Positions 14,049 to 62,097 of a stretch of 64,000 nucleotides of DNA are shown here, in pieces. Position 1 is the stretch's first letter. Every line of letters starts with the position of its first letter. Origin of the DNA: an uncultured Clostridia bacterium (GTDB taxonomy: Bacteria > Bacillota > Clostridia > UBA1381). Under the pieces are notes generated by a model that had not been told where the DNA came from, did not search any database, and worked only from the letters and a program-made list of their open reading frames with translations. The stretch lies in NCBI GenBank assembly GCA_947626135.1, contig CANQQZ010000010.1:1-64000 (forward strand), read 5' to 3'. The position numbers were made by a program, and so were the translations under genes.

Positions 14049-17000
14049 ATGCACAAGATAGGTATAAGAAAAGCGGCAGCCTTGTTTGCAGCGTTTTCAA
14101 TGCTTCTGAGCAGTTTCCCCTCGGCTGCGGGAGAAGAGAATGCGCCCGCGGCACAGGATGCGTCAGGCGACACTTCAACCTCCATTACATACGGTCCGGG
14201 ATTGTACTCTCTTAACGAGGACGGAACATTAAGCGCCGTGGACGACGGGGAGAAGGTAGAGCCTCGTCTGGACATGGATCTGACAAATATAGTTCCGGTA
14301 CCGAAATATACGGAGGATGCCGACGGCTCCGAATTTATTAGTCTTGAGGAGTATACGAGGGAGCAGGAGAAGCTGCCGTCGTATAACGAGCAGCAGGGTA
14401 TAATGCCGGCTGCGGCTTTGTCAGGCGGAGCGGGAAGAACGTCTTTGGGAACAAATATTGCGAGTACGGCGTATACCGGCTCTGTAACCAAAAACGGATA
14501 TTATTATCTTGGCGCGAGCGGAACAAATCAGGCGAACACATTCTTCTTCAACGGTGTCAATATAAATTGTACGGGAAATTATGACTGCGCCTTGCAGGTC
14601 TATTCGAGCGGAAACGCTTTCGTGGAATTTCTCGGGGCGTGCTATATAACGAAAACCGGATATACAGGTTCGGCTGCGTCGGCGATAAAGTCCACGGGCG
14701 GAACGGTTATTATAGATATTAACGAAAGTCTCACGATCAATGTTACGGGAGCGGAAACGAATTACGCCGTTTATAAAACCGCGGGCAACTGTACGCTTAA
14801 GATCATGTCGGCGGGCAGCTGGCTCCAGACGAACAATATAAAATGCTACGGCTTAAACGCGTTCTACGATCCCAATATAACATATATAACCATTACTCCG
14901 AAAAAGGAATATACCGACGCCGATAAGATTGACGGAAATATTATACTGCCGGTCGGAAGCAGCATTGATTTCACAGGAGTCATAACCTCCGGAATGGGTG
15001 ACAGATATACGCTGTGGGGCAACGACGGTATTACGTATAAGGTTACAAGGACCGATCGGGCGAGCGTAACGAGCAGCGGCTTTGACGGAACGGTTACGGG
15101 TCTGGCTCCGGGCGTGGTAAATGTAACAAGCGTTGCGAACGCTCAGGATCCCGACAGCACTGTAGACGGCAACAGCATAGGTCTTGTGGTCGGTCAGGCG
15201 GTCGCGCCGCGTAACATGTCGGCCACAAGGGTTGACAAATCCACAATTAAGCTTCAGTGGAGCGACGCGTTCGTTGATTACGGCGATAACAACTCCGAGG
15301 TTGTTACCGGTTACGAAATTTATTACTCGAAGGAGCATATCACCGACGAAAACATAGATGATCCCGAGGCCGTAACAAAGATTGAGGTTGAATCCTCGGC
15401 GCTGAGCGGCGAGCATACGTTTTCGGATTTGGAACCCGGTGAGTTTTACTATTTCAGAATAAAAACAAAATCCCGTATTTTCGGAATAAGCGATTTGTCG
15501 GAGGAAGCATACGCGCATTTGTACATAGACCCGACAGCGCCTACGGATGTAAAGGCGGCAAGAGTCAGCGATACAGCGATTGATGTGTCGTGGAGCGGCG
15601 CGGGCGGAACAAATATAATAGGCTACAGAGTTTATTACAATGTCGGAGAGATGCCCGACGCGGACAGCGTGTATAAAGAGATTTTCACAAAGGAGGAATA
15701 TGACCGGCTTCATCCGGCAAGCCCATCGCCCACGCAGGCTGCCCCGTCGCCCGAGCCTTCGGACGCACCGGAGGTAATGTTTGCCGATGACTACTGGGAG
15801 ACAGGCGAGGGAAAATTAACGATAGAGGATTCATCGATCGTTCCCCAGCGCGACTATTATATTAAGGTAGAAACAATAACGCGTCCCATACCGGAGCAGG
15901 AGGAGATGCTTCTTTACAGCGGTCTTTCGGATGCATATGCGTCGGTGTATATGTACAAGTCGCCCGAGGCGCCCGAGATACTTACGGCGGAGAGAGTGGA
16001 CGATACTACGGCTCATCTGAAATGGGAGGGCGCCGCCGGAGACGAGATTTACGGATACCGTCTGTACTATTACAAGGATTCGAATCTGGTCATTCCGTTT
16101 GACAGCACGCTGGCGTTTTTTGATAATGCCGCCGCGCAGGGGCGGACGGCTCCCGAGCCGAACGGGATCTCGCAGATAGCTTTAGAGGAGGATATGCCGG
16201 AGGATTCTGTTTTCAATATTAATGAAGATCCGAGCATTTTATTTGAGGTCCCCAAAATTCAGAAGGATCCGGAGATGGAAAAGCTTAATTACAACAGCAA
16301 AAACCAGGATTTAACGGAGGTTGACGGATCGGAATTTATAAATATAGCGTCTTATGAGGGCGCGTATGATCCCGGGGACGGAAACACAGCCTATTCCGAG
16401 CCTGAGCCGCAGTCGGGCGACGTTGCTATGGACGGAGACGGCAAGCTTACGCATAATCTTCCCACCAATACATACGCCACGGCGTATACCGGATCATGGG
16501 TGTCAACGCATAATAATTATATGAAGCTTACCACCGCGGGCAACTATTATTTCAACGGCGTCAACATAACCGGCGACGGCGGCGATTATTATGGAACGAT
16601 ACTTTTCAGCAACAAGGGTACGGCGAATCTGTATTTTTACGGAAACAATGTTATCAGCCGCGCGGAGTCGGATTTGGAAAAGGCGTCCGCGATTTATGTG
16701 AACAGCGGCGGAACGGTTAATATTTATAACTACGGAGTCCTGACGCTGAACACGTCCGGCAATTACGCTATTTATGATAACGACGGCACAGTGAATTTGC
16801 TTGCCAACAGGATAACGACCGATAAGAGCTATTACGGGCAGATAAATGATAAATCGGCGGCACCGCCGAGCGCGCCTACGAGCATAAGCGCCAAAAAAAC
16901 AGGCGCGACCTCGGCTTTGGTGGAATGGAAAAACGGCGATGGCGGCTCGTATAATATTTACGGATATCGTATTTATTACAGCAGCTCGGGAGAGCCCACG

Positions 17001-20000
17001 ACAGATTCAGAATACGTGTCGGTGAAAATGCTTGAGCATAAGGACGGAAGCTGCACGGTCGAGGGACTTACACCGCAGAAAACATATAATTTTAAAATAG
17101 TTACCGTGACCACAGCCGCGTCGAGCCCGATTTCGACGGCAATGGGAACCGCATCCTTAGACGTTACGGCAGGCGCTCCGCAGACAGTCAAGGCATCAAA
17201 GGAGAATGCGACCTCCGCCAGAGTTGAGTGGAGCGGCGCTCAGCTTGCGGAAAATGACGGACGGATAACCGGATACAGGATATATTATGATAAAAATGTG
17301 CCGACGGATGAATCGGATTATATTGAGGTAAAATCAAATAACGAAACGAGCGGCAGCGCCGTAGTGAAGGATTTGGAAACAAGCACCGTTTATTATTTCA
17401 AGGTCATGACCATATCCATGTACGCGGATTCGGAGATATCCGAGCAGTACGACAGCGCGGATCTGACAGTTCATATCGCGCCGCCGTCTGTTATCGAGGC
17501 TACGCGCGAGGATTCGGCTATACGAGTTGACTGGAGAAATCCCGAGCTGGAGGAGGGAGTAATAACAAAATACAGAGTTTATTACTCAGCCGGCTCCGAG
17601 CCTACGGAATCATCAGATTATGTTGATGTTGAAACAAGCTCCGGTACAGCTATGGCTGTTATCGAAAATCTGAGCAAGGCAAAATATTATATAAAGATAC
17701 AGGTATTTTCAACATATATAACAAGCGGCTTGTCGAAATCGGATATGGTTGACCTGTCTATAGACGTTTTGGCGCCGAAGATTATCACGGCTGTGAGGGA
17801 GGATGAAAACTCCGCGTCGCTGTCGTGGAGCGGCGCGTCCGCAGGCGGGGGCAATATCAGCTCATATCTGATATATTATGATACTGAAATCCCCACCCAG
17901 GATTCGCCGAGCATAACGGTTCCCGCGAACGGAGAAACGGGCGGAACGACTATCGTAAGCGGAACCGGCGGACAGATCAACTATTACAGAATAGCAACGG
18001 TGGCGGACAACGGCACAAGCTCGCTGTCGTCCGTATACGCGAGCGCGTTCCTGTTTAAGGGTACGAGTATAGCTCCGGGCAGTACAATAGATATGAAGGA
18101 CGGAAACGTTTACCGCCTGGATGAGGACGGTGAATATACCGTGTCCGGAGGAGAGTTCAGCGACGCGGCAATACAGGTTGCGGACGGAGTTGAAGCCGTG
18201 CTGAACATTAACGGAGATTTGACCGTTGACAACAGCGCGAGCAGCGATTATGAACAGTCGCCCGTTTCAATCGGCGGAAATGCGAAGCTGACGATAAATA
18301 TTAACGGAAATGTGAATTTTTACGGCTCCCCCGCGGGAAGCGGAAGCACAAACACCGTAAACGGAACAGGCGGCACGGGAGGCTTTGCCGGAGTCGAGGT
18401 TCCGAGAAGCGCGTCTCTGATCATAGCCGGAGCCGGTGATTTCAAGGCATACGGCGGCGATGCCGGTGACGGCGGAAATTCAATAAGAAATAATGATATC
18501 GGCGGAGCAGGCGGCGGCGGAGCCGGCGCGGGCATCGGCGGAAACGGCGGTAATGGCGGCGCTGCGAACACGCCGGAGGTTGTTTCAACGGCTGAAAACG
18601 GCAGCGACGGCGGCGACTGCGGCTATGTACACATTGTCGGAGCGGTTAACGTCTATGCCTATGGCGGCAGCGGCGGCAGCGGCGGTTATATGATAAACGG
18701 TGACGCGGGCGGCGGCGGCGGTTATCCGGCAGCGGGTATCGGCGGCGGCGGAGCCGGCGGCGGCGGAGCGACTACGACTAACGGCGGCGGCGGCTTCTCC
18801 GGCGGCACGGGAGAATATGAAACAGTTCCCGGTAAAGGCTTTTCATCAATGACGGACGGCACGGGCGATTCAAATGTACTCGCGGGAAGCGGATATTTCT
18901 CGGGCGGCAATATAGGCGGTCTGGGACAGAACGGAGCCGGAACCGGCGGAGCGGGCGGCAAAGGCGGAACGGTTTTTGCGGATACAAGCATAGGAAAAAT
19001 AAACGCATATAACGGAAACTATATCACGTCTCTGGACAGCGGCGCTAACGGAAACGGCTGGGGCGAAAATCCGACGCCGATTTACGCGCAGCTCGGCTAT
19101 AATATAAGCACTGTAAGGAGCGCGGGTCTTCCGGAGGCAGAGGGAAGAACAGCCGAGGCCCTTATAACGGAGCTTGGCGGATACGCGCCGGTTGAGTATA
19201 CATACAATAATATAGTAGGAATAGGCTCGGGAGCAGGTTATACGGAAGCGGACAACGGAGTTTACGCGCCGTATGTGTTCAATCCCAATTTCAGAACATT
19301 CGGCGAGCAGGATATGACAGAGCTTGAGAGCATGAATTTGTGGCATTTCCGCGCGCAGACGAGCTCCAAGAACGGCTTGAGCGTTGTTTCTGAGGCGGAG
19401 GCAAGCGCGTATCTGTTTGTTATGCCGTATCCTCCCACGGAAATTGCCTCGGAATGGGAAACCCCGACTGCCGTGCGGCTTACCTGGAGCGGCGCGCGCG
19501 GCGCGGGTATAGACAGATATTATATATACTATACCACGGATCCCACGGAGCGTGTGGAGCGCTGGAACATTTCAAATGAGGTAGGCGTTGAGTCGGGCGG
19601 GTCGAAGCCGTCCGAGGTACCGGCGGATGATATTTTCGCGGGAGATACGTTCATAATATTATACAATCCCGATCCGGCGCAGCAGTATAAGCTTCTTGAC
19701 GATCTCGGACACGATGTCAGGGGTCAGATATGGAAGAGTGCGGATGGCTCGGATATGCTTGTATTCGATGGTATAGAACCGAATACGGGATACAGGCTTG
19801 TCACGAGATATGCCGAAACGGATGAAGGTATACCGTCCGGGCATACAGACGGTGTCAGCATTATAACGCGGCAGGAAATCATTCCTCCGGCTCCCGTTGA
19901 GCCCGAGGAGACAGAGGAGCCCGGCGAGCCGTCGGCAGCCGAAGAACCGGAGGAACCCGATCATATAGATTACGTTTTGAACGGAACTCCGGACGCGGTT

Positions 20001-23000
20001 GAAATGAGCGCCGCGGCGGTTTACGATACGGCTGTGGAAATCTATCCGGCATATTACGGAAGCGAATATCAGCTTTTGACGGAAGCGGGAGACGCGGTTG
20101 TCCAGAGCGGCTCGGACGGCGTTGGTCTTTACGTGGACTCCTGGGTAAGACCCGACGGAGAAAACAGGGTTGAATTCACAGGCTTGTCACCGGAAACGAC
20201 GTATAAGCTTGTGACGAGATACAGAGCAATGGGCGGCAGAGCAGCTTCCGCGGATTCCGGGTCAATAACGCTTATAACATTGGCTGAGGGAGAGGGCGTT
20301 CGACCCGAGCCGGAGGAGCCGGAACCTGACGACTCAATATCTGTAGAGCCGGTCAGGATCGACTCTGAGAGCGGAGAGGCGATAGTGCGCGGGCTTGTTT
20401 CGAACGAGACATATTACTTTAAGATCGCGTCGGGAAGCGTGTACCAGGATAAGAGCGAGCCGTCGGAGGTCACGGCGCATACATATCTGTTCGCGATGCC
20501 GGACGCTCCGGTTGTGGATAAGGTCGTGCCGGGCAACGGTAAGCTGACAATCCATCATATCAGGACGGCTGACAGCCACGGCAGTCCGATACAGTACTAT
20601 AATATAAAGGTTTACAGGGATAAGGCCTGCGAACAGCTTGAGACAACATTCCAAGTCGACGCGAATTCCGGCGACGATTTGAAGCTTGACGATGTGGAGA
20701 TCCCGAATCTCACAAACGGAACGGAATACACCGTGTTTGTCACGGCTGTAAACGGCGCGGGAGAAAGCAAGCCGTCGAATACGTTAAGCGTAATTGCCGG
20801 TTCGCCGTGCGCCCCCGACCCGTTCAGAGTACATTCGGGAGAAAATCGTCTGCTGAACGTAAAATACGGCGCGTCGGAGGATAACGGATTCCCGGTAACG
20901 CATTATAACATTTACGTGGACGGGGAGTTCTACACAACGAACGAAACGCTCACATATGAGTTCGAAGGCAAGTACTACGGAGATTTGCATACCTTTGAGG
21001 TAAGCGGAGTAAACCAGTGGGGCGAGGGACCGAAGACGGAGGCTGTTTCGAGAAGCATCGGCGCACCGAGCACCGCTATGGTCAATAATATAGTATATTA
21101 CAGCGACGGCTCCGATTACGAACCCGATTCAACCGACCCGACCGGTATAGACGTAAGCTGGGATCCGGCTAACGGCAACGGAGAGGTTATACAAAGATAC
21201 ACGCTTTACCTTTCGGAAAAGGGAGAGGATAACGAGGTCGCCTTTGAGGTCGATGTTGACCCGAGCACAAAGCTTATCGACACAAATGTACATATTCCCG
21301 CATTTGTGATGCAGGGCGACAAAAAAGTTACTTACCTTAAATACGGACAGGAATATAATATAGAAATAGAGGCGGAAAGCATCGCCGGCATAGGCTCCCG
21401 GTCGGAGCCGTACTACTTCACCTACGGAGCGCCTTCCGCGCCGATAATAACAATGGCGCACGGAGCCGATGAAATCATAACGACGATGTTCATTTCCACG
21501 GAGGGCAACGGAGCGGACGTATTGTATTTCAATATATACGTTGACGGCGAGCTGTACGCGGAGCATGTCGAGGCGCCGCCTGTGGTAGTTGAGAAGCTGG
21601 CGAACGGAGTTGAATACACCATCGAGGCGACAGCTGTAAACCGTTTCGGGGAAAGCTCGAAATCGAAGCCTGTGAAAGCGACCCCGGGCAGACAGCCTTC
21701 GGAGCCGCGTAATGTGCAGGCAACCGCCATTTCCGGAACCGAGGTGGCGCTTTCATGGGAGCCGCCCATAAACAGCGGAGGATATGATATATTATCATAT
21801 TATGTCGCGGGATATATTGCAAACAAGGAGCAGGATGAAACTAATCAGGACGACTCAAAATATATAACCTGCGATATCCGTATCAACGATGACAATACAG
21901 CCGTCATAAGCGGTCTTGAAAACGGAACGACTTATGAATTTGAAGTGTTTGCCGTAACGGAAAGCAATACGGGTTATGTCGGATTGTCCAACGAGGTTAC
22001 GACGTTTGCCACACCCGAACCGCCGGTTATCACAAAGGCGATATCTACGGCGGAGCGCGTTGCCAATCCGCCGGTAACGGTATGGTGGGATCCGCCGGTG
22101 GGCGATGATTCGGTAGAGTCATACAATGTCTATCTGTATGAGGCGGCGACCGACTCGTACAGCAAGATCAACGACAGACCTATCACGGATACGGCGTATA
22201 CCTTCACTCATGAGCGCATGACAAGGCGCAACACATACGAAATTGCCGTAACGGCGGTTAATTCCGTCGGCGAGAGCAATAAATCGGAGCGGGTGTCGAT
22301 TCTTATGGGCGCGCCGTATGCGCCGGAGAATCCGGCGGTTACGACGGATAATACAACGGCGTATCTGACATGGCAGATGCCGGATATGGATACCTGCTAT
22401 GTCGAGGGCTACAGAGTATATCTTGACGAGGATCTGACGCGCGCGAAGGTCAGGATAGACGATCCTTCGGAAATGGAATGCGCGCTTCGCGGCTTGCAGA
22501 CGGGCAAAGCATATACGGCGTATATAAAATCCTTTAACGATGTGGGCTCGAGCCCGTTCTCGGAGCCGGTCAAGTTCACTGTCGGCGCGGCTCAGCCTCC
22601 GCAGATAACAAACGTTAAAGCGGGATACGAGCTTGCCGTTCTGAACTGGACGCAGCCCGAAGAGAAAGAAAGTATCACGGATTACATCATATATGCCGAG
22701 TGCGGCGGGGTCAAGAAAAAGGTCGACAGCGGAGACATAGCGCGCAATGAAGACAATACTCAGGCTACAATCACAAACCTTGAGGGAGGAAAACGCTATA
22801 CCTTTACAATAACCTCAGAGTGTAAGATATATACCGGCGACGGCGATAACTATATTACGGCTGAAAGCGTAGAGAGCGGCGGCGTTTCCGCTACACCGTG
22901 GACCAAGCCCGATGCTCCCGCGATAGATAAGTACAGCGTTATTGCCGGGGACGGAGAATTCAGCTTCTCCTTTGACAAGCCCGAGACCTACGGATTGGAT

Positions 23001-26000
23001 ATTTCCAAATATGAGGTTTACGTGGACGGAGTGAAGACGGAAAATTGTTCTATAGGAGACGGAACGGTTGAGGTTCACGGCGTGACCAACGGATTTACCG
23101 GGGATAATCACTACGGGCACAGATTCTATATGCTTGCATATACGAAGTCGCCGGAGGAGGACCCGGCTGAGTATGTGAGCGACACGCCTCCGGAAGAGGA
23201 ATGGGTTGAAGTCACCACGGGACTTCCGCAGAAAGCGGTGATAGACGGCGTATCTCCGGGCGATGAGGAGATAACGATAAGCTACAGTGTGCCGAATGAA
23301 TCGAAAATCGATATAACCGGATATGAAATAGTATATTCGGCAAACGGCGTTGAAAACACAATAACCGCGAGCTCCAAAACCGAAACGCTTACCGGTCTTG
23401 AAAACGGCGTACAGTACACTATCAAGGTGAGAGGAAAGAGCGCGTGGGGAGACGGTCCGTACAGCGATGAAATTACGGCGTCGCCCGGCACGGCTGCCGC
23501 GCCTGAGATCACAACGGCGCGCAGCGGCGATTCGAGCGCGTATCTGGAATGGAGCGTTCCGGATTCTCCTTTGAGCGATATATATAAGTATAATATTTAT
23601 ATCGACGGCGAGCTGGCATACGAGTCAAACAAAACATCCATGACCATCGCCAACCTCGTGAACGGCACATCGTACAGCTTTACGGTTGCCGCTGTGAACG
23701 AATACGGCGCGGGAACAAAATCAAAGCCGGTTACGGTCACGCCGGGCAAGGTGCCGGGTGTGATTGAAAGAGCCGACTTGACGGCGCTGAGCGATACGGA
23801 GGTTGAGATTGAATGGCTCGAGCCGCTCGATAAGGGCGGACACGATGTGAGCGGATATATTGTGACGGGAAAAGGCATTCCGGCTGAAAATATAGACGTT
23901 GACTCAAAGAAGAGAACCGCGAAGGTTACCGGACTTACGCCGGGAACATGGTACAGCTTTGAAATAACCGCCGAAAACGAAACCGGCAGAGGCGAAACGT
24001 ATTATACCGATTCCGTGCGGACAATGATAGAGCCCGGAGCACCGATTATAGAAAAGCTGTCGTCGGTTAACGATACTATAACCGTTCGCTGGCTGCCCCC
24101 GGAGGACGAGGGCGGCACACCGGTGCTCGGCTATAATGTTTATGTAAACGGTAAAAAGATTAACAAGGAAATGCTCGACGGACCGGAATATACGATCGAG
24201 TCCGGCGACGGACTGGAGATAAGCTCGGGCAGCGAATACGCGGTTACAGTGAGCGCGGTCAACAAGATAGGCGAGGGCGTTCAGTCAAGCGAAATGTATA
24301 TTACGGCGGTGGGATATCTCGCGCCTACAGTGCCGGGTAAGCCCAGAGACGTTCAGGCGATTCCGGGCGACAGCAGGGTTACGGTCGAGTGGGTAAACCC
24401 CGCATACGACGGTAACGATGACATCACGGAATACTACGTATACGCCGGAACCTCCGAGGATGTAATAGCGTTCCGCGGCAAGACAGACGGAGCGACATAT
24501 ACGTTTACGGTACCTAATCTGAATAACGGCACACCGTATGTGTTTGCTGTAAGAGCCAAAAACAGCAAGGGAGAAAGCGAGTTCAGCGATTACGTATGGG
24601 CGTCTCCCGGAAAGCTGAATATACCGCAGGCTCCCTCAGGTCTGGCATACTTTAACGATACGGCAATGGAAAACATGACCGTAACGTGGAATGCCGTTCA
24701 GGGTGATGATATAATATACAGAGTTTATGTGAACGGCGAATATATCGAAACCTCAGATACGCAGTATACAATGCCGGTCGGCGGAGGAAAGAAGTACAGC
24801 ATTCAGGTCAGCGCGGTCAACAGCGTGGGAGAAGCGGTAAGCCAGTACATTTATGCCTGCAATGATCTGAACGTGCTTGACGGCGACGGACAGCTTACGC
24901 GTCTGGACGCAAACTATGACGGCGAGCTCGACGATAAGATCATATATTCCGCGCCTTACGCGCCGGAAAATGTAAGATACGAATACGATATCAATTCGGA
25001 TGAGATCCAGATATATTGGACCGCCCCGTTTGACGGAAACAATCCGATTACGGGCTACAGTATATTTGTAAACGGCGAGGAGTTCACGACGATTGGCGTA
25101 GACGGAAACGGTATGCCGACCAATCCCGGCGACAAGCTTGTTTATGAGAACGGAACGTATATTTATACGCATACCGTCACTCACGAGACGCCGTATTCGG
25201 TACAAATTGCGGGCGTCAACGGCTACGGAACGGGCGACAAGTCGAAGGCGATCCTAGTATATGTCGAGATACTTGATTATCCCAGCGGCGTTACGGCGAA
25301 GCGGGAGAATCCGGACACAGAGCCGGAGGATATAACGGTCGAATGGCGTATACCGGATGAAACGGATGATCTGGAGGGCTTCGCGGTCTACATCAACGGA
25401 GTGGAGCACATATTATACGAAATATCCGACAGCCATGCGGACGGATATTCATATGACCCCGCGACGCGCAGATGTACCTATCATTATACTCAGGCGGAGC
25501 CGGAAAGCGATTACATATTCCGCGTTGCGGCGGTGCATCATGACATGACAAAGAGCCGCGTGTCGAACGCCGCGAGAGTGTATACCGATTTGGAAAGCCC
25601 TGATGCGCCGCAGTGGGCGGAGGAGCCCATTACGGAAGCGGACGGCGGCAGCATAAAGCTTCGGTGGATTGCTCCGGAGAGCGATATAACGCATTATCTG
25701 CTCTATGTAAACGGAGAACAGGAGGCTCGGATAGACGCAGCCGATACAGAATATACGTTCACGCCGGAGGCGGGCAGATATTATATATTCAGAGTATCTG
25801 CCGTAAACGGCACAGCTGAGAGCGAAAAATCCGACAGGCTCGATTACAGCACGATTGATGCGGAAGAGACAGCGCCGGACGCGCCGCTTAAGCCGAGAGA
25901 TTTGGACGTCAGATTTGTGTATTCCGAATCCGGAGACGGCAGCATCGCGCCGCAGGATAATATGATTATCACATGGAAGGCGGCGGGGCATGACGACTCT

Positions 26001-51400: not shown

Positions 51401-54400
51401 CCGCGGCGCACAGCGATTCGCTGGGCGAGCTTGACGTGCGCAATAAATATACGGTCACGTTCTATGACACAACCGGCTCGGGCAGTCCGCTCGGCACGGC
51501 TGAAGTGTTTGACGGAGATCATATTACAGACTCGGGTAAGCTCAACGAAATAAGAGGCTGGGGAGACACCGCGGCAACGTCGGCGGGAGATAAATACTTC
51601 GACCATTGGGAGGTTGTCGGCGGTTCGTTGATGAGCGGTAATTATGACCCCGTATCAACTCCCGTGACGGAAACAGTATCTGTCAAGGCGGTCGTTCAGG
51701 AGGACGCTGTGCAGTCAATTGAACATGCAGGCTCGCTTACAAAGGACACCTACGCGGAGCACGCGTCATTTGACCCGGCCGGCATTACGGCTACGCTGCA
51801 TCATGTTTACAGCAGCAATGATGAGACGGGCATATTGCCGGCGCAGTGGAGCGATAAGCATATAAAGGTTGTATATGCCGATTCGGGCAGCGGCGTTGAC
51901 GCGAGCGCATGCACTGATTTGCCGTCATCGCTTACGAAGGACTTAAACGGCAAATATTTGTACCTTATGTATGATGACGGAAGCGGACCGAAGCTTATCA
52001 CATCAACACCGTTTGCACAGCTTCACATAGAAACAGAATATAAAGTGATACTGCATTATCTCGGCAGCGATAACAGCGATAAGCAGGCTGAGATCCCCGC
52101 GCTTATGACGGGCGATAATGTGCAGGAAGCTCAGGTTACGGAAAAGGTAACCGATATAAACAGTTTAGCGACCGGAAAATGGGAATATAGAAGCGGTGAT
52201 GTTGTTACATTCCCGATTACCATAGCGACGAGCGATGTTGAGATCTGGGCGCAGACGAAGCTCCCGGCGCCCGGAAACGTCAGCGCGGCAAAGGTCGAGT
52301 GGAGCGGCTCCGGCTCGGAGGACGACAAGAAGGGCGGAATCAAGGTCAAATTCGATCAGGTTTCCGACGCCAATGAATATGCGATTGAGATAAAGAAGGA
52401 CGGAAGAACCGTTAAGACGGTTACCGTCAGCGCCTCCGACTATTCGTCGGACGGCACGCTTATCGGCGCGGACGAAACCGTCTTCACGCCCGGCAGCGGC
52501 TATACGGTCGAGGTTGTCGCGAAGCCGGCGGCGGGTTCGCATAAGGTGGATTCCGACCCGGGCACATCGTCAAGCGTTGACGCGGGTAAAATGTACCCGA
52601 CCCCGCCGACAACCGCTACAGGAAAGTATTACAACGGCATTACGCGCGGCGATTTGACGTTTAATACAAGTCAAAACGTAACATGGACGATCGTTTCGCC
52701 GGAAACGCTCGTACACGTGTCTGACACGAACTCCAGATACGCGGTAAGCACAGCCGGTAACGATATGTATCTTGCGGTTTCGGGATCGAACGAGGTGACC
52801 GTTACCGTTACAAAGGGCGATGTTGAAATAACGAAGCCGCCGACAGTTAACGGAAGCGAACACCGCGTAGGCGACGAGGTTACGCTTGAGACGTCCGGCG
52901 CCGAGGCTCAGGATTCTCATGAAAAAGCAAGCGACTTTGTTGTTGAGGGAACATGGTCGGTGACGAGCGGAAACCCGCTTACAGCTGAGGACTCAAATTC
53001 AGTCGGCTATACGTTCCACCCAACAAACAGCAATGACTATAATGACGCTACAGGCACATTGACAGTAGATGATGTTATTATGGTCTATACCGTTACGCTT
53101 AAATTGAATAAGAACGGATCCGATGAGGAGGATTATCAGGTTCTTAAAATCGACAAGAACGATTATGTAACCACACCTAAATATTCATATAAGGGCGATC
53201 CCGATTTGACGACCAATCCGGGATATAGGTTCCTGGGCTGGTACGAGAGTAGAAGCGGCGGCTCGCCGGTTGATCTTTCAAGCAAGACGATAACATCAGA
53301 ACTTACGCTTTACGCTCATTGGGAGAGCGCGCAATATACTGTCCAGTTTAAAAAGAACGACGGCACAGAGGATTTCTACGATGATTATAAGAAGGAAAAT
53401 CTGAACTACGGCAGTACGATAACCGAGCCCACAGAACCTTCGCGCGTGGGCTATGATTTCGGCGGCTGGTATAAGGATTCGAGCTGCTCGGAGGGTGAGA
53501 AATGGGTATTTAATGGCGAAGGCGATGCGTCCAAGGTACAAGATAATGTCACCCTTTATGCAAAATGGACGGTTCATAAGCATAAGGTTACGTATCATTA
53601 CACGAATGATTCGGGCGATCAAACCGCGGAGCATGCCAAAGTTCCTTACGGCACAAAGCTTGACGGCGACAACGCGCCGCCCGATAACAGTACAATAGGC
53701 ACCCGCTACGGATATACGCATGAAAACAAGTGGTACACCGGCACCGATTACAGAAATGAGTGGGATTTTGGTACCATGACGACGCCGGATAGTGATTTGG
53801 ATTTATATCTCCAATGGAACCCGGTGGACGTGACGGTCAAGTTCATGTACAACTATGACGGCGCGCCGAGCGACGGCGTGTTTAAAACCGTCACTGTTTC
53901 ATTCGGTCAGAACGGTCAGGAGATCGGTAGATTACTGAGTAATGAGCAGCCTACACGTCAGGACTGGAATTTTACAGGATGGTATCGGGAGCCGGGATGT
54001 GAAAATCATTATCTTTTCACATCGGCTACAACAGTAAATTCTACTGATGACATTAATATCTATGCGGGCTGGGAGCGTATAAAGTATCGGGTTACGTTCT
54101 ACTATAACCGGTCGCTTGAGGACAGTGATACAGCATCATTTGAAATTAATTCCGGAGATACAATATCGGCGGATAATATAACGAATTTGCATTTGGATAC
54201 GACCGGCGTGAACGGAGACGTTTTCAAGGGCTGGGCGAAGCTTACAGAGGGAGTTCCGGACACGGATCACCTTGTTACCGATGCGTCGGAGCTTGTCGGA
54301 ACGACCGTGCGTGAAAACCTGAATTATCAGGCTCAGTGGGAAAAGCGTCAGATAACCGTTCGCTGGCTCAAAAATGACGGCAGCGGCGACGCGTTCCAGA

Positions 54401-57400
54401 CCGGACCGGTGAAGAATTACGGCGATAATGTATATGGGAGTGACTTCACATCGAATAATAATACGCGTGAACACTATACATTTAAGAACTGGACGTTAGA
54501 CCAACCCGGAAACAGAGTATTAAGCGGCGATGTTAGGGTTGAAACAGAAGAAGAGTATTTCGATATCTACGCGCAGTGGACGCCGAAGAAGTACACGGTT
54601 CATTTCAAAATGAACAACGGCACGAATGATGATTACACCACGCAGGAGGTTGATTACGGCGCTCTTGCATCGTCTCCCTCCGGTACGCCCGAGCGCGCAG
54701 GCTATACCTTTACCGGTTGGTATAAGGAGCCGGAGTGCAGCACTAAATGGACGTTTGAGACCGACGCCGTAACGGACGTTGACGAGACAAACGGCTTGTC
54801 GATTTACGCAGGCTGGCGCGCGGAGCCCAAGGCGGAGGATATGTCGCTCAGCGTTTCTCCGAGCAATGCCGTTCCGGCGTTTACCGACGCCACGCTGACC
54901 GCATCGTACAGCGCGACAGCGGGATATTCGGGCGTTACGTTCAAGTGGTACAAGAACGGCTCTCCGATTACGGATGACGACAAGTATGACCTTACCGACA
55001 ACACGCTTACAATCAAGAACTTCCTAAGCTCCTATGAGGGCACGTATAAAGCGGTGCTCTGCGTGGGCGAACACGAGTATGATACCGTGTATAAGGAAGC
55101 GGTTCTTACGATACAAAAGGCTACGACCAGTATCGGCGGCACGGGCCGTAATCTTTCGATCGAGTATACCGGCTTAGATATAAAATGGAGTGATGTTATA
55201 ACCAATCCCGGGCTTATTGACGAGTCAACGGGCACTATCACCGTTTCGGACGGCGCGCCGCCGGCGAAGGGTAACTACAACAACACTGACGGACTTCGGT
55301 ATAGGATTACAAGGCGCGGTTCGAGCGCGGTCGTTACGCCGAAGGACGCGGGAGAATATACGCTGACCGTCTCGCTCGGCGAGGACGCGAACGGCAACTA
55401 TGAAAAGCCCGCTGACCAGGTGTATAACTTCACGATTACGCCGAAGGAGCTTACGGTCACGCCGAACGCGTTTACAAAGGAGTACGACGGCAATAACAAT
55501 CTGCCGCGGCAGACGCTTTCAAAAGACAGCGGTCTTACCGGCTTCATCGGCGATGACGGCACGGGAATAACCGCTGTGCTGACCGGTACGTATAACAGCA
55601 AAAACGCCGGAACATACGGCAGCGGACAGGTGAGTGTCACGGGAACGCTTAATTATCCCGCCGAAACGTCGGCGAGAAATTATAAGCTGCCCGATACGAT
55701 TACCGCCGCGGAGGGCAATGCGATTACCAAAAAGACGCTGACCTTTACAGCGGCAAATACGTCTATTTCGAGAAAGGTAGGCTCCGCGGCGATAGATTTG
55801 TCTGCAATCGGCACTATCACGTTCAGAACGCCTGTCGAACCAATCACCAAGGTATCGTCGGCGCTTTCCTCGGGTAACGGATATTTGCTTAGCTTTGAAA
55901 AGACATCGGGAACTTTGGAGCTTGCGAACCCGGGTGGACCCATGACACTGATGCCGAGCACGGCGGAAACAAACATATATAAGGCGACGATCGCCCTTAC
56001 CGGCGACGCGGCGACAAATTATAATCTTACGTCCTCGGAATATACTGTTACGGTAAATATTTCCGATAACGCGGTTTATAACCTCAGCGTTGCGACGGAT
56101 ATCGACACGTCGGGCGTAAACGTTATATCGCCGTATGTAAAGGAAACATATCATAACGGCGGAAGCGCGGAATCAGAACCTCATTCCGTAACGGCGGCGA
56201 GCGGAAACGCGGCGATAAAAATCACGCCCGAAACAGGCTTTGAGGCTGACAGGGCGGAGTTTAAAGACGGCGCGACGGGCATAGGCACTCTCGGAGCCGT
56301 TCAGGATGCCGCAGGCGAAAAATCGGTTCAGTATACTGCTCCGGGCAGTCTGCCGGAAAATGATACCGATGTGCCGATAGTGGTTTACTTTAAACCGATA
56401 CCGGTAGAGCTTACGGGCAGAAATATTAATTCGGGCGCCGGCGAGGATGATGTATATGTTAATGATACAAAGGAGTATAATTTTGAATCGGCAACCGGCG
56501 GCAGCGGAAGCTATAAATACAGCATAGCGGAGACGACAAACTGCAACGCAAGTATTGACGAGACAAATCCGACCAAGCTCAGTATTACGCCTACTAAGAA
56601 GGCGGAGGCGACCGTAAAGGTGCGCGTCGAGGATACCGGCAACGGCACGTATGCCGAGGCGACATATACGCTCGCCGCAGACAAAATACTAAAGGCTACG
56701 CTTACGCTGAAGCTCACGGATGTGAACGAAACATACACGGGAAGAGCATATCCGATATTGATCGACCATGAGAGTACAACAGTCGATGAGAGCAAGATAA
56801 AATATTCGTATGAGAGAACCGCGGACGGCACAGGTGCCGGAAGCGGAAGCTGGTGGGAGGACGGCGTATCTTATCCGACGTCAGATCCGCCAATCAACGC
56901 CGGAACATATTCGGTCACGGCGACAGTTGAGGGAACGGACGAATACAAGGAGGTAACGGCGACAGGAACGGTTACGATTAGCCGTGACACGCTCAGAGCC
57001 CCATTCCCGGGTACACCCGACGTTTACGAGGGCACGGAGTTAAAAACCGTGACCGTGCCCGGCACTGCGACAGGCACACACAGCAGAGAAGTCGTAAACG
57101 GAACATATGCGGTCGAATCTGTCGCTGAAGGCACCGTCAAGGCGGGATTGAATGAAAATATTAACTATACGTTCATTCCGACAAGCGATAAGGATAAGAA
57201 CAATTATGAAAACGTTTCAGCCACGAACGGAAGCTTTACCGGAAAAGCGAAGAATTCAGCGGATATTTACATAACGCTTAATAATTCGACGGCGACATAC
57301 GGCGACGGCGAGACGCAGATCAGGAACAATTCGCAGAATGCTGCGCTGCAATCCTCCGCTCCGACGGCGGCGGCAGGCGGAACATGGTCGTATAAATATT

Positions 57401-60400
57401 ACGGCAGATCCCTCGACGGCACGTATTCCAAGGCGGCGGAGGCCGCGGACGATGTAATACCGTCCAAGGCGGGCAGCTATTACGTGGTTGTAACATATGA
57501 GAATACTATGTACAGAGGCACAAAGACTGCCACGCTCACGATTAATCCGAAGCAGATTACCGTTACATGGCCGGAGTTTGTCGGACAGGGCAAGGTGTTT
57601 GATAACACGCCCGACGCGGCAATCAGTACGGAGCTTCCCGCAAACACTCCGACATTCTCGGGCTTTGTGGGAGGCGATGAGGCGCTTGTAACGCCGGCTA
57701 TCAAAGCCTCGTATCAGTGGACGAAAAATCATAGCCCGTATGTTCACACTGACGCGGAGGAGATAACGGGAACGCTCAGCTTTGATACGGATTACGCGGT
57801 CGACCAGACGTACAAAAACTATGTAATACCTCCGGCGTCGGCTACAAAAATCGTTACTCAGCCGCCGACCGTCAGGATCACGGCGAGACCCCTGACCGCG
57901 AACACGCTGCCGGAGGTTGTAAAGGATTACGACGGTACGACCAGGATGCCCGCGGGCTATAGTCTTATGGCATCGTACTTCACCAATTACGTTGAGACCG
58001 CCGTTCCGACAATCGGACTTGGAAGCACAGCGTTTGAGGATAAGAACGCGGGCGAAGGAAAAACGATCAACTGGGCGCCGACGGTGATAGGTCCATACAG
58101 CAAGGATTATGTGATAGACCTAATTACAAAGTCGGGCACGATAAATCGTAAGAAGATAGCATTTTCGGTAGATTCGCCTCTTGCCGTCAGCACGAGCCCC
58201 GGTATGACGGGAGCGGAGCCGGGAACAACGGTTGACCTTAAGGACGCCGGACGTTATTTCCAAACGCTCGCGGAGGGCGAGACGCTGGAGGAGGGCGTTG
58301 ATTATACGCTCGTATACGCGCTGACCAGCTCTGGCACTACGAAAATCGAACTCGCGTCGGACGGTCACACGACCACACCGACAGACACGGAGGGCGACGC
58401 GGAATTTTCCGCGACAGTGACGCTTACTACGGATAAGGCGAAGAACTATCAGTTTAATTCGACCAGCGCAACATATCAAAGCGAGGATATAGCGGCAGGT
58501 CATATAACCGTTACGGCAAGCAATACGGTACATCGTGACGTAAATATTTATGACGGCGCCGACGCATCCGCGGCAGATATAACGGGCGGCACAAAGGCTG
58601 TCGAGTTCGGCAGCGGCGCGTTTACAATCAGCGCGGCTCCCACGCTCGGCGAGGATAAACCCGTCTGGAGCTATGCGACAGCTGTCGACAACGACGTCGC
58701 CGATATTACGGATAACGGCGACGGAACCGTTACGATTACGCCGAATAAGCTCGGAAGTGTGGTTCTGAAGGCGTCCGTAAGCCAGACGCCGGAATACAGT
58801 ATGGCGTCCGCTACCGTTACAATCAGCGTGACGAAAAATACGGTGACCGTGGTGATGAACCCCGAAACAGCCGTATATGACGGCACAAACAAGAAGCCCA
58901 ATATAACCGTTACCGGCAAGAACGCCGACGGCTCGGCATATACCCTTGTGGAGGGCGATGATTATACCGTTACCTTCTATATAGGCGACCCGAGCGACGG
59001 CGGCGTGGAAGCGGGCAGCGAGATTATAGATGTGGGCGAGTATTACGCGGTTATCAATATAACAAACGATAATTATAAGCTCGACGACGACGCTGACGCT
59101 CTCATATTCACAATTACATCCGCGCAGCTCGAGGTGGGAGATATCACCGGCGACGCGGTTTACAAGGAAACTCTGACAGCGGGCGGCGTAACGGCTCCGG
59201 ATGTTGATCCGTCCGCGGACGCTCCGACATATACATATCAGTGGTACGTGTCCGATACCGAAGAGGGTCCCGGAACGCCCATTGACGGCGCTACGGAGGC
59301 ATCGCTTGAACTCAGCGAGGATCTGGTAGGCAAATATGTTTATGTTGAGGTTACAGGCACGGATAACTATGAAGGACAGACCGCCAAGAGCAACAGCGTT
59401 AAGGTAGAGAAAATAGAGCTTGAGGGCAGCGCCGATATCACCTACGACGGTAAGGACAGCGGCGAGGAAGCCGTAAGAGGCACTGTGCTCACAGCCGACA
59501 CGTCAGGCATTGAGGAGGCTTACGGGGACGAAATCGATCCGGATAAGTTTACCTATGAATGGTACGTGAGAGGCGACGACGGCACGCCGCAGAAGGTTGG
59601 CGACGGAAAAACGTATACCGTTACTGACGATACGGCAGGAAAGTCGGTTTACGCTGTCGCGGTTTACAGCGACAACGGCTATGAGGGCAGCTTCCAGACG
59701 GATGATGTGGTAACAGGCAAATTCGCTCTTGAGGCTGAAAGCGAGCTGAGCGCGGAGCGCGTAGTCGGATATGACGCGTTCGATATCACAACGGATATTA
59801 CGAATAAATCCAATAAGCCGGTAATGCTTCAGGCTAAGGCGGTTGAAAAGGGCGCGCAGCTTGAAAGCGCGGCGTCCACGGTATTCACGGTATCTCTTAG
59901 CAGCGCTGACGCGGTTGCCGCCGACGGTACCGTAACGCTTACCGTTACGCCGGTGACCGGACTTGATATCGGAACGTACACCGCCACGGTATACGTATAC
60001 GATTCGGCGTATATCGGCGTTGACGCGGTGAAGATGATTAATGTGACGTTTGAGGTAACTCCGCTTGTAAAGCATGTTAAGTTCCTCGATAAGGACGGCA
60101 ACGTTATCGCCGGCAGCGAGCAGGATATTGAAGCGGGTCAGTCCGCGACTGTTCCCACTCCGCCGGAGGTAGAGCATTATCACTTCGTGAAGTGGACGGA
60201 TGAGGACGGAAACGAGCTTTCGGCTTCCGATTTCGGGAATGTTCAGAAGGATATAACGGCTAAGGCGGTTTACGAGATAAACATGTACACCGTTACATTC
60301 CTTGACAAGGATGGCAATGAAATCAGGAAGGATACCGTGGAGGCTCTTACTCAGATCGTTCCGCCTTCTCCCGGAACGGTTGAGAATTATACGTTTGTCG

Positions 60401-62097
60401 GCTGGGCTGACGAGAATAACGATATAGTTCCGGAAACGGCATTCGCGTCCGTTACAAAGGATATGACGCTCAAGGCGGTATTTGAACGCGAAGCGTATAA
60501 TATAATCAATGATACAAATGACGCGCACGGCACGGCTCAGGTTCAGTCCAAAGCCGCTCCCAATACGACGGTTACCATTACGGCGCAGCCCGCAAGCGGT
60601 GATTACGAGGTTGATAAATATACCGTTACCACAGCATCGGGCGACAGCGTTCAGGTAACGCCTAACGGCAATACGGCAACGTTTACGATGCCTGAGAGCG
60701 ACGTTACCGTGCGGGTAACATTTAAGGAAAGGACATATACGGTTACAGTTAACGCGGGCTCCGGCGGTCAGGTTTCGGCAAGCAAGACGACGGATATAAA
60801 GAAGGGTGAAATCATCACAATCACGGCGACAGCAAACGCCGGATACAGATTGGGAACCATTACAGTTAAGGATGCGGCAGGCAACGATATCGAGCTTACC
60901 GCGGATAATACCTTTGAAATGCCCGCAAGCAACGTTACGGTTACAGTCACATTCGCATCCACCGGCGGCAGCAGCAGTGGCGGCGGCGGTGGCGGCGGCG
61001 GTGGCGGCGGCGGAAACGCCCTGACCATCAGATATGAGGAAGCCGACGGCAAGGCGGGAGCAAGCGTATCAAAGCTTGAGGCTCCCGCGGGAAGCGAGCC
61101 GGTTGACCTTATAGCCGTATTCACCAGCAAGCCTAAAAATGATAAGGTCATCTGGTCGTCGAGTAATGAGAAGGTTGCGACAGTCGATCAGAACGGAATA
61201 GTTTCGTTCATAAGCGAGGGCACAGCCGTTATTACGGCTGTAGCCGAGACAAGCAAGCTGCTTAAGGATACCGTTACGGTTACAGTAACGCAATCCGAGG
61301 CTTCGCCGTCGCCGAGCACCAGCCCGGCGCCCGGCGCGTCGCCCGGTCCGGACGACAGCAGCCCCGCAGGGACGGACATTCCTATCGAGCAGAACGGACC
61401 GCAGCTTATCACAAAGGAGATGCTCAATCCGTATATAATCGGTTATGAGGACAATGTTTTCGGACCGGAGCTGCCGATAAGCCGCGAGGAGGTTGCCACC
61501 ATTTTCGCGAGACTTATAGCAAACAGCGTATATATGGATAAGTCGTATGACACATCGTTCCCCGATGTGACCGATGCGGAATGGAGTAAGGATTATGTCG
61601 GTTATCTTGAAGGCTTCGATGTTATCAAAGGCTATGAGGACGGTTCATTCCGTCCGAAGGACCATATTACCAGAGCGGAAATGGCGGTTATGATGGCAAG
61701 AGCCGAGGGATATGATATATCCGGATATATGTCGCCCGACGCGCTTGTGTTCCCCGATGTGGAAGAGGGCTACGGAACATGGGCGGTTAAGGCTATTAAG
61801 GCTCTGACGGACGCCGGAATCATGGAGGGTTATACTGACGGCACATTCAGACCCGACCGTCCCATAACCAGAGCCGAGACAGTCGCGACCATAAACCGCG
61901 TTCTCGCGGATATGGAGATCGATTCAGCGGAGGTTCTTCCGTCAGACGTAACCGATGCGCATTGGGCGTATGACGATATCGTATTTGCAATGAATCACAG
62001 AATTTTAAAGGATGCGGCGGCGGATCCGAGCCAATTCCTTGATTCGGAGCAGTTTGACGAGAATATCATCAGAACGACCGAGACTGTGGACGACTGA
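48421..62097 (+). CDS. Gene 7: giant SLH-anchored repeat protein (adhesin-like)
   Basis: The 4558-residue protein begins with a signal peptide (about 1-30) and an A+T-rich unique region. Beta-sandwich repeats marked by GGTP and GY.F come next (about 220-1280, with three bacterial Ig-like domains among them). An FN3-like domain follows, then about seven Listeria-Bacteroides (InlB-B) repeats (about 1557-2137), recognised by Y.F.GWY and LYA.W. YDG/MBG-type repeats fill about 2230-3570. Two Ig-like domains, two more InlB-like units, two divergent InlB-B repeats and a polyglycine linker follow. A Big_2 domain (IWSSSNEKVATVDQNG), a Ser/Pro linker and three SLH domains (about 4327-4558) end it. It is anchored to the wall and likely mediates adhesion or fills the surface layer. 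No cohesin, dockerin or enzyme is visible. GGGGG lies 13 bases before the ATG. A bidirectional terminator follows. Confidence 0.8.
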   Translation: MKIRHLKKRLWSMLLALSMLLSVMPNGFAAEITSDNNQVPIKSIAIKHTAGVITGIDITVDPAIHASASAIIDYVIFTNYSHDGGSVDYDSETLSGEISDLPNGEYLSETINDDTLYMPAVYGYAVVNNENLGIINIPINGSAYDGDFSKSKIEELAADLESGFELDSAAQDQTPIKIFLWSEVAGNKDANRYEHEFTLDPSNNTDLTDPESSVSPTDQEITAGALTLTPPAVGGTPQSQPGDVTVSSSTPSDSFDVSGITWSGDLTSGGKFDADTAYTVELTLKPRSGYKFPDDPVEGSYTINGQAVTTDITKNTDGTITVKYTFTNTDKLAVTGIASASDDSLNRSYEDGGSFDYTGGKVTVTYNNGETEDVDLKSNTRGLSVVYGSGKSELADGIELHSGVFPAGENLFYHYDASEDQKDGINQSSGTLDSATLGDLTVAAAEKITEVSATFEFPAAGGTPAQTAEVTSGSPSDYTITDISWEESPAEGLESFSDFSGPTFGYNKKYKAVVTFTKAGSKSFDTPNVTATAKKKDEETTTKVDNVDDASESEVIAEFIFDPTAKKQISGGNVTVTAPEAGGTPNTSGTDTSDDFNIKSVEWSKADDSPVDGNFGYGEQYKVKVTIEPTADCEFPAEPDKSQYKVNGVEPDKVTRDSDGNCVLEYTFPATAGLDEISSVDVAGVTVPEAGATATTAGITVSTPNVTLTSDSDSPKWTTDGADPFTDQFEAGKKYTLSVKITPDAGHKFAETGMTGRVNSTYPATVVVDPGGMSATVTWEYTVAALEITAVDVSITDPKPEDDIPTSAWMDFDAIVTGLSVTPDSQAKITSVTYNEGDKDSVIPASGKFKENTQYTITVVLTAEENYAFTETHESDYKINGAAPSDLQTSPDGKTLTLKYTFTTDKDEITGVTVNGSPKLGPYAAETDNFDDSGITSVEVTYKYKGKETIEPAQFEDKGIKFSYGSGHTELPEPLTTDQNGQEVYVTVDDGTHTAAHSDSLGELDVRNKYTVTFYDTTGSGSPLGTAEVFDGDHITDSGKLNEIRGWGDTAATSAGDKYFDHWEVVGGSLMSGNYDPVSTPVTETVSVKAVVQEDAVQSIEHAGSLTKDTYAEHASFDPAGITATLHHVYSSNDETGILPAQWSDKHIKVVYADSGSGVDASACTDLPSSLTKDLNGKYLYLMYDDGSGPKLITSTPFAQLHIETEYKVILHYLGSDNSDKQAEIPALMTGDNVQEAQVTEKVTDINSLATGKWEYRSGDVVTFPITIATSDVEIWAQTKLPAPGNVSAAKVEWSGSGSEDDKKGGIKVKFDQVSDANEYAIEIKKDGRTVKTVTVSASDYSSDGTLIGADETVFTPGSGYTVEVVAKPAAGSHKVDSDPGTSSSVDAGKMYPTPPTTATGKYYNGITRGDLTFNTSQNVTWTIVSPETLVHVSDTNSRYAVSTAGNDMYLAVSGSNEVTVTVTKGDVEITKPPTVNGSEHRVGDEVTLETSGAEAQDSHEKASDFVVEGTWSVTSGNPLTAEDSNSVGYTFHPTNSNDYNDATGTLTVDDVIMVYTVTLKLNKNGSDEEDYQVLKIDKNDYVTTPKYSYKGDPDLTTNPGYRFLGWYESRSGGSPVDLSSKTITSELTLYAHWESAQYTVQFKKNDGTEDFYDDYKKENLNYGSTITEPTEPSRVGYDFGGWYKDSSCSEGEKWVFNGEGDASKVQDNVTLYAKWTVHKHKVTYHYTNDSGDQTAEHAKVPYGTKLDGDNAPPDNSTIGTRYGYTHENKWYTGTDYRNEWDFGTMTTPDSDLDLYLQWNPVDVTVKFMYNYDGAPSDGVFKTVTVSFGQNGQEIGRLLSNEQPTRQDWNFTGWYREPGCENHYLFTSATTVNSTDDINIYAGWERIKYRVTFYYNRSLEDSDTASFEINSGDTISADNITNLHLDTTGVNGDVFKGWAKLTEGVPDTDHLVTDASELVGTTVRENLNYQAQWEKRQITVRWLKNDGSGDAFQTGPVKNYGDNVYGSDFTSNNNTREHYTFKNWTLDQPGNRVLSGDVRVETEEEYFDIYAQWTPKKYTVHFKMNNGTNDDYTTQEVDYGALASSPSGTPERAGYTFTGWYKEPECSTKWTFETDAVTDVDETNGLSIYAGWRAEPKAEDMSLSVSPSNAVPAFTDATLTASYSATAGYSGVTFKWYKNGSPITDDDKYDLTDNTLTIKNFLSSYEGTYKAVLCVGEHEYDTVYKEAVLTIQKATTSIGGTGRNLSIEYTGLDIKWSDVITNPGLIDESTGTITVSDGAPPAKGNYNNTDGLRYRITRRGSSAVVTPKDAGEYTLTVSLGEDANGNYEKPADQVYNFTITPKELTVTPNAFTKEYDGNNNLPRQTLSKDSGLTGFIGDDGTGITAVLTGTYNSKNAGTYGSGQVSVTGTLNYPAETSARNYKLPDTITAAEGNAITKKTLTFTAANTSISRKVGSAAIDLSAIGTITFRTPVEPITKVSSALSSGNGYLLSFEKTSGTLELANPGGPMTLMPSTAETNIYKATIALTGDAATNYNLTSSEYTVTVNISDNAVYNLSVATDIDTSGVNVISPYVKETYHNGGSAESEPHSVTAASGNAAIKITPETGFEADRAEFKDGATGIGTLGAVQDAAGEKSVQYTAPGSLPENDTDVPIVVYFKPIPVELTGRNINSGAGEDDVYVNDTKEYNFESATGGSGSYKYSIAETTNCNASIDETNPTKLSITPTKKAEATVKVRVEDTGNGTYAEATYTLAADKILKATLTLKLTDVNETYTGRAYPILIDHESTTVDESKIKYSYERTADGTGAGSGSWWEDGVSYPTSDPPINAGTYSVTATVEGTDEYKEVTATGTVTISRDTLRAPFPGTPDVYEGTELKTVTVPGTATGTHSREVVNGTYAVESVAEGTVKAGLNENINYTFIPTSDKDKNNYENVSATNGSFTGKAKNSADIYITLNNSTATYGDGETQIRNNSQNAALQSSAPTAAAGGTWSYKYYGRSLDGTYSKAAEAADDVIPSKAGSYYVVVTYENTMYRGTKTATLTINPKQITVTWPEFVGQGKVFDNTPDAAISTELPANTPTFSGFVGGDEALVTPAIKASYQWTKNHSPYVHTDAEEITGTLSFDTDYAVDQTYKNYVIPPASATKIVTQPPTVRITARPLTANTLPEVVKDYDGTTRMPAGYSLMASYFTNYVETAVPTIGLGSTAFEDKNAGEGKTINWAPTVIGPYSKDYVIDLITKSGTINRKKIAFSVDSPLAVSTSPGMTGAEPGTTVDLKDAGRYFQTLAEGETLEEGVDYTLVYALTSSGTTKIELASDGHTTTPTDTEGDAEFSATVTLTTDKAKNYQFNSTSATYQSEDIAAGHITVTASNTVHRDVNIYDGADASAADITGGTKAVEFGSGAFTISAAPTLGEDKPVWSYATAVDNDVADITDNGDGTVTITPNKLGSVVLKASVSQTPEYSMASATVTISVTKNTVTVVMNPETAVYDGTNKKPNITVTGKNADGSAYTLVEGDDYTVTFYIGDPSDGGVEAGSEIIDVGEYYAVINITNDNYKLDDDADALIFTITSAQLEVGDITGDAVYKETLTAGGVTAPDVDPSADAPTYTYQWYVSDTEEGPGTPIDGATEASLELSEDLVGKYVYVEVTGTDNYEGQTAKSNSVKVEKIELEGSADITYDGKDSGEEAVRGTVLTADTSGIEEAYGDEIDPDKFTYEWYVRGDDGTPQKVGDGKTYTVTDDTAGKSVYAVAVYSDNGYEGSFQTDDVVTGKFALEAESELSAERVVGYDAFDITTDITNKSNKPVMLQAKAVEKGAQLESAASTVFTVSLSSADAVAADGTVTLTVTPVTGLDIGTYTATVYVYDSAYIGVDAVKMINVTFEVTPLVKHVKFLDKDGNVIAGSEQDIEAGQSATVPTPPEVEHYHFVKWTDEDGNELSASDFGNVQKDITAKAVYEINMYTVTFLDKDGNEIRKDTVEALTQIVPPSPGTVENYTFVGWADENNDIVPETAFASVTKDMTLKAVFEREAYNIINDTNDAHGTAQVQSKAAPNTTVTITAQPASGDYEVDKYTVTTASGDSVQVTPNGNTATFTMPESDVTVRVTFKERTYTVTVNAGSGGQVSASKTTDIKKGEIITITATANAGYRLGTITVKDAAGNDIELTADNTFEMPASNVTVTVTFASTGGSSSGGGGGGGGGGGGNALTIRYEEADGKAGASVSKLEAPAGSEPVDLIAVFTSKPKNDKVIWSSSNEKVATVDQNGIVSFISEGTAVITAVAETSKLLKDTVTVTVTQSEASPSPSTSPAPGASPGPDDSSPAGTDIPIEQNGPQLITKEMLNPYIIGYEDNVFGPELPISREEVATIFARLIANSVYMDKSYDTSFPDVTDAEWSKDYVGYLEGFDVIKGYEDGSFRPKDHITRAEMAVMMARAEGYDISGYMSPDALVFPDVEEGYGTWAVKAIKALTDAGIMEGYTDGTFRPDRPITRAETVATINRVLADMEIDSAEVLPSDVTDAHWAYDDIVFAMNHRILKDAAADPSQFLDSEQFDENIIRTTETVDD
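53090..54830 (+). repeat. InlB-B (Listeria-Bacteroides) repeat array in gene 7
   Basis: About seven units of 70-85 residues with the pattern YTVTF..NDG......YG......P.R.GY.F.GWY......Y.I.AYW-like ending. Examples are RVGYDFGGWYKD and RAGYTFTGWYKE. Confidence 0.85.
60977..61001 (+). repeat. 25-bp GGC-rich direct repeat, copy in gene 7
   Basis: Same 25 bases as at 44523-44547, in the same direction, inside the polyglycine linker. Confidence 0.75.
61400..62095 (+). other. SLH domains of gene 7
   Basis: Motifs YIIGYEDNVFGPELPISREE, LEGFDVIKGYEDGSFRPKD and DAGIMEGYTDGTFRPDRP, followed by a C-terminal tail. The first unit looks shortened. Confidence 0.85.

Follow-up and report, generated by a model that had tools for sequence, protein, structure and literature searches.

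Cellulosomes are classically anchored by X-dockerins and by cohesins carried on SLH proteins. The closest described system to the locus reported here is the anchoring arm of Acetivibrio (Clostridium) thermocellum, which comprises the X-dockerin of CipA and the type II cohesins of SdbA/ScaC on SLH proteins. Enzyme-free use of cohesins and dockerins is known from ANME archaea, and modules resembling cohesins and dockerins are common outside cellulosomes, for the most part with no demonstrated binding (PMC9012536). Among the huge proteins (>5000 aa) encoded by giant genes of bacteria, Dockerin_1 is one of the frequent domains, mainly in Planctomycetota (PMC11573180). A literature search, from which subscription papers and preprints were excluded, found no published description of a locus such as the one presented in this study.

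The locus is situated in a window of 64,000 nt (i.e. the whole stretch of DNA that was analysed) belonging to a 2.33-Mb draft assembly that is 84% complete. Seven long, co-directional ORFs occupy positions 14040-62097 of the + strand, on which all of the features described below lie unless otherwise stated. The gaps between them, from gene 1 to gene 7, are 234, 71, 27, 15, -4 and 48 nt, and each of the seven proteins has an N-terminus resembling a signal peptide. Together they amount to 15,882 aa, in agreement with the original prediction, made from the DNA sequence, of seven adjacent co-directional genes for about 15,900 residues of secreted protein. The interpretation favoured here, with a probability of about 0.65, is that the locus encodes an SLH-anchored cohesin/X-dockerin surface scaffold that displays giant, apparently non-enzymatic and probably adhesive repeat proteins.

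Gene 1 (14040..27392, with an alternative ATG start at 14049) encodes a secreted fibronectin-III (fn3) giant of 4450 aa with 21 fn3 stretches identified by Pfam, and gene 2 (27627..37733), its paralogue (35% identity over 2.4 kaa), encodes an fn3 giant of 3368 aa; both proteins end in an X-dockerin. A PDB search with the N-terminal part of the gene 2 protein returned nothing relevant. The 1541-aa product of gene 3 (37805..42430) is scaffold-like, with a cohesin-like module A, CarboxypepD_reg repeats, a cohesin module B and an X-dockerin. Gene 4 (42458..45193; 911 aa) encodes an anchor with a cohesin, four aBig_2 domains and three SLH repeats, and gene 5 (45209..46456; 415 aa) a connector consisting of a cohesin and an X-dockerin. 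Gene 6 (46453..48372; 639 aa), which overlaps gene 5 by 4 nt, combines an N-terminal cohesin with a C-terminal region common to a phage protein. Gene 7 (48421..62097) encodes a 4558-aa giant of the Flg_new/YDG/Ig type with three C-terminal SLH repeats, the C-terminus of which resembles that of a syntenic 4960-aa protein in the relative G017; no cohesin or dockerin, and hence no joint to the other proteins of the locus, was detected in it. The SLH anchors predicted for genes 4 and 7 were recovered by Pfam with 107.5 bits (44648..45190) and 116 bits (61552..62011), respectively, at a cut-off of 20.8 bits. The giants had been described as fibronectin-III proteins, which is correct for genes 1 and 2 but not for gene 7. 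All three (4450, 3368 and 4558 aa) fall short of the >5000-aa threshold for huge proteins.

The C-termini of genes 1 (26892..27389), 2 (37221..37730), 3 (41885..42427) and 5 (45896..46453) were aligned with those of five relatives to give an X-dockerin profile. The aligned sequences consist of an X-like module followed by two calcium loops, with invariant calcium-site Asp; the first loop of the gene 3 dockerin is degenerate. The four window copies score 141, 160, 156 and 208 bits, respectively, with this profile. In the PDB, the profile matched the X-dockerin of CipA (2b59_B, E 1.9e-16) across both the X module and the dockerin, and the next matches were 3kcp, 5g5d, 4wi0 and 4u3s. Gene 2 by itself matched the dockerin 2y3n_B (E 3.3e-5). 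Pfam Dockerin_1 was below its cut-off or missing in all four of these proteins. Judged by profile similarity, the four C-termini are X-dockerins of the scaffoldin (type II, CipA) type, so that the dockerin ends originally proposed for these genes can be refined to X-dockerin dyads. When the whole draft genome was scanned, the strong matches were the four window copies alone, accompanied by one weak match to an LRR protein. Also encoded outside the locus is an LRR (BspA-type) protein (L011:5047-10221, on contig C8 of the same assembly, G000) in which two Pfam cohesins flank a dockerin, a set complete in itself.

Since Pfam by itself misses the window cohesins and under-scores the dockerins, tests of both family and fold were needed; no cohesin module of the window matched the Pfam cohesin family on its own. 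For the N-terminal module of gene 6 (46543..47157), the assignment comes from the fold of a predicted structure. The AlphaFold model, built from six input sequences, has a mean pLDDT of 45.6, with a better N-terminal part. For this model, Foldseek ranks two cohesins highest in the PDB, 1tyj (E 6.9e-5) and 4dh2 (E 7.9e-4), and type II cohesins lead the VIA list, with a Z of up to 8.3 (3fnk) over 142 residues, a value close to the background level flagged by VIA. A type II-like cohesin fold at the gene 6 N-terminus is thus supported by a model of low pLDDT.

The modules of gene 3 (module B, 39593..40237, cohesin family A4/A5), gene 4 (42566..43084) and gene 5 (45290..45862) were assigned largely by family membership. 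An HMM constructed from the three had 11 matches in the relative G064, and three of the 16 aligned members of their family (A5) match PF00963, the best with E 7.5e-6. With the predicted structure of the gene 4 module (mean pLDDT 50.9), cohesins rank first in Foldseek, but with E 0.04, and CBM3 folds score like cohesins in VIA; searches of the PDB using the gene 4 N-terminus (phmmer) and the cohesin-family profiles A5, A12 and A13 gave nothing relevant. On account of the low pLDDT, the E value of 0.04 and the likeness to CBM3, these three modules are taken as cohesins mainly by family and weakly by fold. Module A of gene 3 (37937..38656) is cohesin-like by eye alone, and hhalign comparisons with cohesin profiles gave E values of 0.019 and 0.29, with low probability. 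A profile-profile comparison of the gene 6 type with the gene 3B/4/5 type revealed no significant link, and the locus cohesins appear to fall into two subfamilies. The prediction of cohesin-like modules in genes 3 (twice), 4, 5 and 6 thus gains support from fold for gene 6 and from family for 3B, 4 and 5, while module A stays no more than a candidate. The N-terminal modules did not prove to be unrelated to cohesins, four of the five being supported.

Enzymes appear to be absent from the locus as far as the domain scans extended. Pfam (E 0.1) found no catalytic domain and no CBM in any of the seven proteins, and NCBIfam found no catalytic domain in genes 3-7, the N-terminal 2000 aa of gene 1 or the N-terminal 1000 aa of gene 2. 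A weak Pfam match of gene 3 to a viral protease (14.5 bits) was far under the cut-off. The lack of a hidden catalytic domain, on which the original prediction depended, is thereby upheld by Pfam for all seven proteins and by NCBIfam for parts of them.

Gene 1 is preceded by a perfect sigma-70 promoter (13973..14001; TTGACA-17-TATAAT) whose spacer contains the inverted repeat CAAATAA-CA-TTATTTG, and a second perfect sigma-70 promoter, with the spacer palindrome CAAATAT-CA-ATATTTG, is located before gene 2 (27541..27569). The two are near-identical, and their 29-nt form occurs nowhere else in the 2.33-Mb assembly, with up to three mismatches allowed. The 7-nt inverted repeats in the spacers are perfect and the two differences between the copies are paired, as would be expected of a candidate operator. 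Terminator-like hairpins were found between genes 1 and 2 (27399..27428; 13 pairs, reported by the scan on the - strand) and after gene 7 (62128..62157), closing the operon of genes 2-7. Because of these near-identical, unique promoters and the hairpins following genes 1 and 7, gene 1 and genes 2-7 look, at the sequence level, like two units under one control. In the window as a whole there are three perfect sigma-70 promoters, compared with 0.01 expected; the third (2461-2489) lies before a glutamate dehydrogenase-like gene.

Seven of 70 family genomes contain gene 6; 25 genomes from elsewhere in the order all lack it. A strong X-dockerin of the gene 5 type occurs in the same seven of 70; the profile was built without G017, while the other six of these genomes contributed to it. 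In the six relatives (G017, G009, G023, G069, G072 and G064) the gene order is giant, gene 5-like, gene 6, Flg_new/SLH-type giant, the flanking giants having been scored where the contig reaches, and genes 5 and 6 overlap or touch in most of the six. The G064 assembly contains, on several contigs, several copies of a cassette in which a gene 3-like gene (with a dockerin end), a gene 4-like gene (with SLH) and a gene 5-like gene follow one another; since that assembly is fragmented and 8% contaminated, these copies may derive from a second organism. Conserved synteny, which had been suggested as a check on the prediction, was accordingly observed, the gene 3-4-5 cassette and the gene 5-6-7 block both recurring in related Clostridia. 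The relatives found by sequence are metagenomic Clostridia, including those from rabbit ('Lapin') and goat duodenum samples. Four congeners, one of them 99% complete, lack the locus, which is therefore accessory.

In the congener G004 (L105-L109), a dockerin of another conserved type, YDLNRDGxIDSKDIAMVLVSWG, forms the end of many secreted proteins. In G063 (L113, 7055-13074) and G008 (L114, 4416-10486), a gene for a 1.6-kaa protein with an internal X-dockerin lies beside one for a protein of 374-383 aa. This smaller partner looks like a cohesin with SLH, and the pair is possibly a minimal form of the system.

Upstream of the gene 5-6-7 block, three of the relatives encode giants far larger than those of the window, as intact ORFs with no ambiguous bases: 29,377 aa in G017 (C4:18128-106261), 33,033 aa in G072 (C6:4474-103575) and 33,065 aa in G069 (C42, minus strand). 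All exceed the >5000-aa threshold for huge proteins, and chance alone would place 2,129 stops in the G017 ORF. The G072 and G069 giants are 93% identical from end to end, with a dN/dS of 0.21 over 33,002 codons, indicating purifying selection; the G017 giant aligns with about 38-44% identity, in near-collinear pieces. RCC1 repeats were identified in the G072 giant by Pfam and in all three by motif. The approximately 19,500 residues of the G072 giant that were scanned contain RCC1 propellers and cadherin-like domains, and no enzyme. The X-dockerin profile matches the end of the G017 giant (E 1.3e-7) and a truncated giant in G009 (E 2e-8), and those of G072 and G069 have a dockerin-like end by eye only. 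Because the corresponding position in these relatives is taken by RCC1/cadherin-like giants, the cargo is not restricted to fibronectin-III proteins. A search for an RCC1 giant elsewhere in the window's genome gave no match, but control queries were equally silent. In another genus, a 13,450-aa open frame with a dockerin-like end was noted (L115, on contig C208 of G008).

Other explanations for these data must be considered. The locus might supply just the scaffold of a conventional complex for degrading plant fibre, with enzymes encoded elsewhere plugging their dockerins into genes 3-6. Such a complex would employ the classic anchoring parts found here, assembly completeness is 84%, the same genome encodes a rhamnogalacturonan lyase (PL11; L014:4742-9259, on contig C17) with a C-terminal Pfam cohesin, and G004, as mentioned above, possesses many proteins with another dockerin type. 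That lyase, however, has no detected dockerin, the X-dockerin profile detects in the draft genome only the four strong window copies and the one weak LRR protein, and the other Pfam dockerins of the genome sit on LRR or small proteins. With neither a CBM nor an enzyme detected in the locus, a fibre-degrading role is considered improbable. It might also be argued that the joints are unused, the modules being structural spacers or vestiges in seven proteins that function separately, as adhesins or wall proteins. The frequency of such modules outside cellulosomes, mostly without demonstrated binding (PMC9012536), is in keeping with that suggestion, as are the degenerate first loop of the gene 3 dockerin and the lack of a joint in gene 7. 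Nevertheless, no calcium-binding position varies among the X-dockerins that were aligned, cohesin genes and their matching dockerin genes are found side by side and reappear as a set, and the unique promoter is shared, all of which argue that unused joints are unlikely.

The C-terminal region of gene 6 (47116..48369) raises a further possibility. Over residues from about 222 to 639 of the protein, it shares 31% identity with a protein encoded by a phage (L058:5514-6908), whose gene has a large virion-like gene on one side and an endolysin gene on the other, on a phage contig of G064. This region could be a carbohydrate- or wall-binding part shared with phage, and the assembly mainly a wall coat or a phage decoy. 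The identity to a protein adjoining an endolysin is consistent with such a role, but the link derives from one phage contig, gene 6 had no match in viral contigs, and the phage homologue had none in viral contigs or phage records; a coat or decoy as the main function would be surprising. The phage contig (L058, G064 C543; 3366-18924) encodes a portal, a 2535-aa protein, an endolysin and two proteins that have segments in common with the C-terminal region of gene 6.

The anchored surface scaffold proposed here would be assembled as follows. Gene 4 would be held in the wall through its SLH repeats and present one cohesin. Genes 5 and 3, in which one or more cohesins precede a terminal X-dockerin and which can for that reason act as links, would form the chain, and genes 1 and 2 would be hooked to it by the C-terminal X-dockerin, their sole joint. 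In this way, the fibronectin-III repeats and the glycine-rich N-terminal regions, 370-490 kDa in size, would face outward. The simplest chain suggested by the architecture would run from gene 4 through genes 5 and 3 to gene 1 or 2. The locus provides four X-dockerins and four to five cohesins, one of which would be fixed to the wall via gene 4. Another type II-like cohesin, fused to the phage-shared region of about 400 residues, would come from gene 6, and gene 7 would be a second SLH-anchored giant, perhaps an independent one of the wall. For a gut bacterium, such a structure would probably serve in attachment or as a surface coat.

A broader proposal, to which roughly even odds are given, is that this family of gut Clostridia possesses a dedicated, enzyme-free cohesin/X-dockerin system for mounting interchangeable giants, be they fn3 fibres or RCC1-propeller chains of 29,000-33,000 residues. 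If so, the giants of the relatives would rank with the largest proteins held on a cell via a defined plug-and-socket joint, and cellulosome joints would serve as a general surface-display kit for giants, with its own regulation and a cargo that varies among relatives. The system also lends itself to asking why some bacteria maintain proteins this long, with tens of thousands of residues: the giant gene keeps the same neighbours, its product ends in a dockerin-like sequence from which the attachment site can be predicted, and it is under purifying selection. The single modules are small enough for expression and testing.

In comparison with known systems, the locus shares with the A. thermocellum anchoring arm the X-dockerin dyad, a type II-like cohesin and a cohesin anchor on an SLH protein. 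It differs from the cellulosome of that species in having no cellulases and no CBM, in its cohesins, which are single rather than arrayed, and in its cargo of giant repeat proteins. Because enzymes and CBM are missing, the locus is not a cellulosome, while it would work like the type II anchoring arm of one. The gene and module content originally noted is thus confirmed with the corrections given above, and its reading as an enzyme-free scaffold for fibronectin-III giants is supported in part. The description of it as a different use of the same parts was right, although such use has a precedent in the ANME archaea (PMC9012536). Those archaea and Archaeoglobus (2xdh) likewise have cohesins and dockerins without cellulose degradation, partly with S-layer links; here, by contrast, there is a single co-regulated locus and a recurring cassette, with SLH anchors and a cargo of 3-33 thousand residues. 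The huge proteins surveyed previously (PMC11573180) are similar in being very large, secreted repeat proteins, whereas those reported here come from Clostridia and have their dockerin end encoded beside its presumed cohesin partners.
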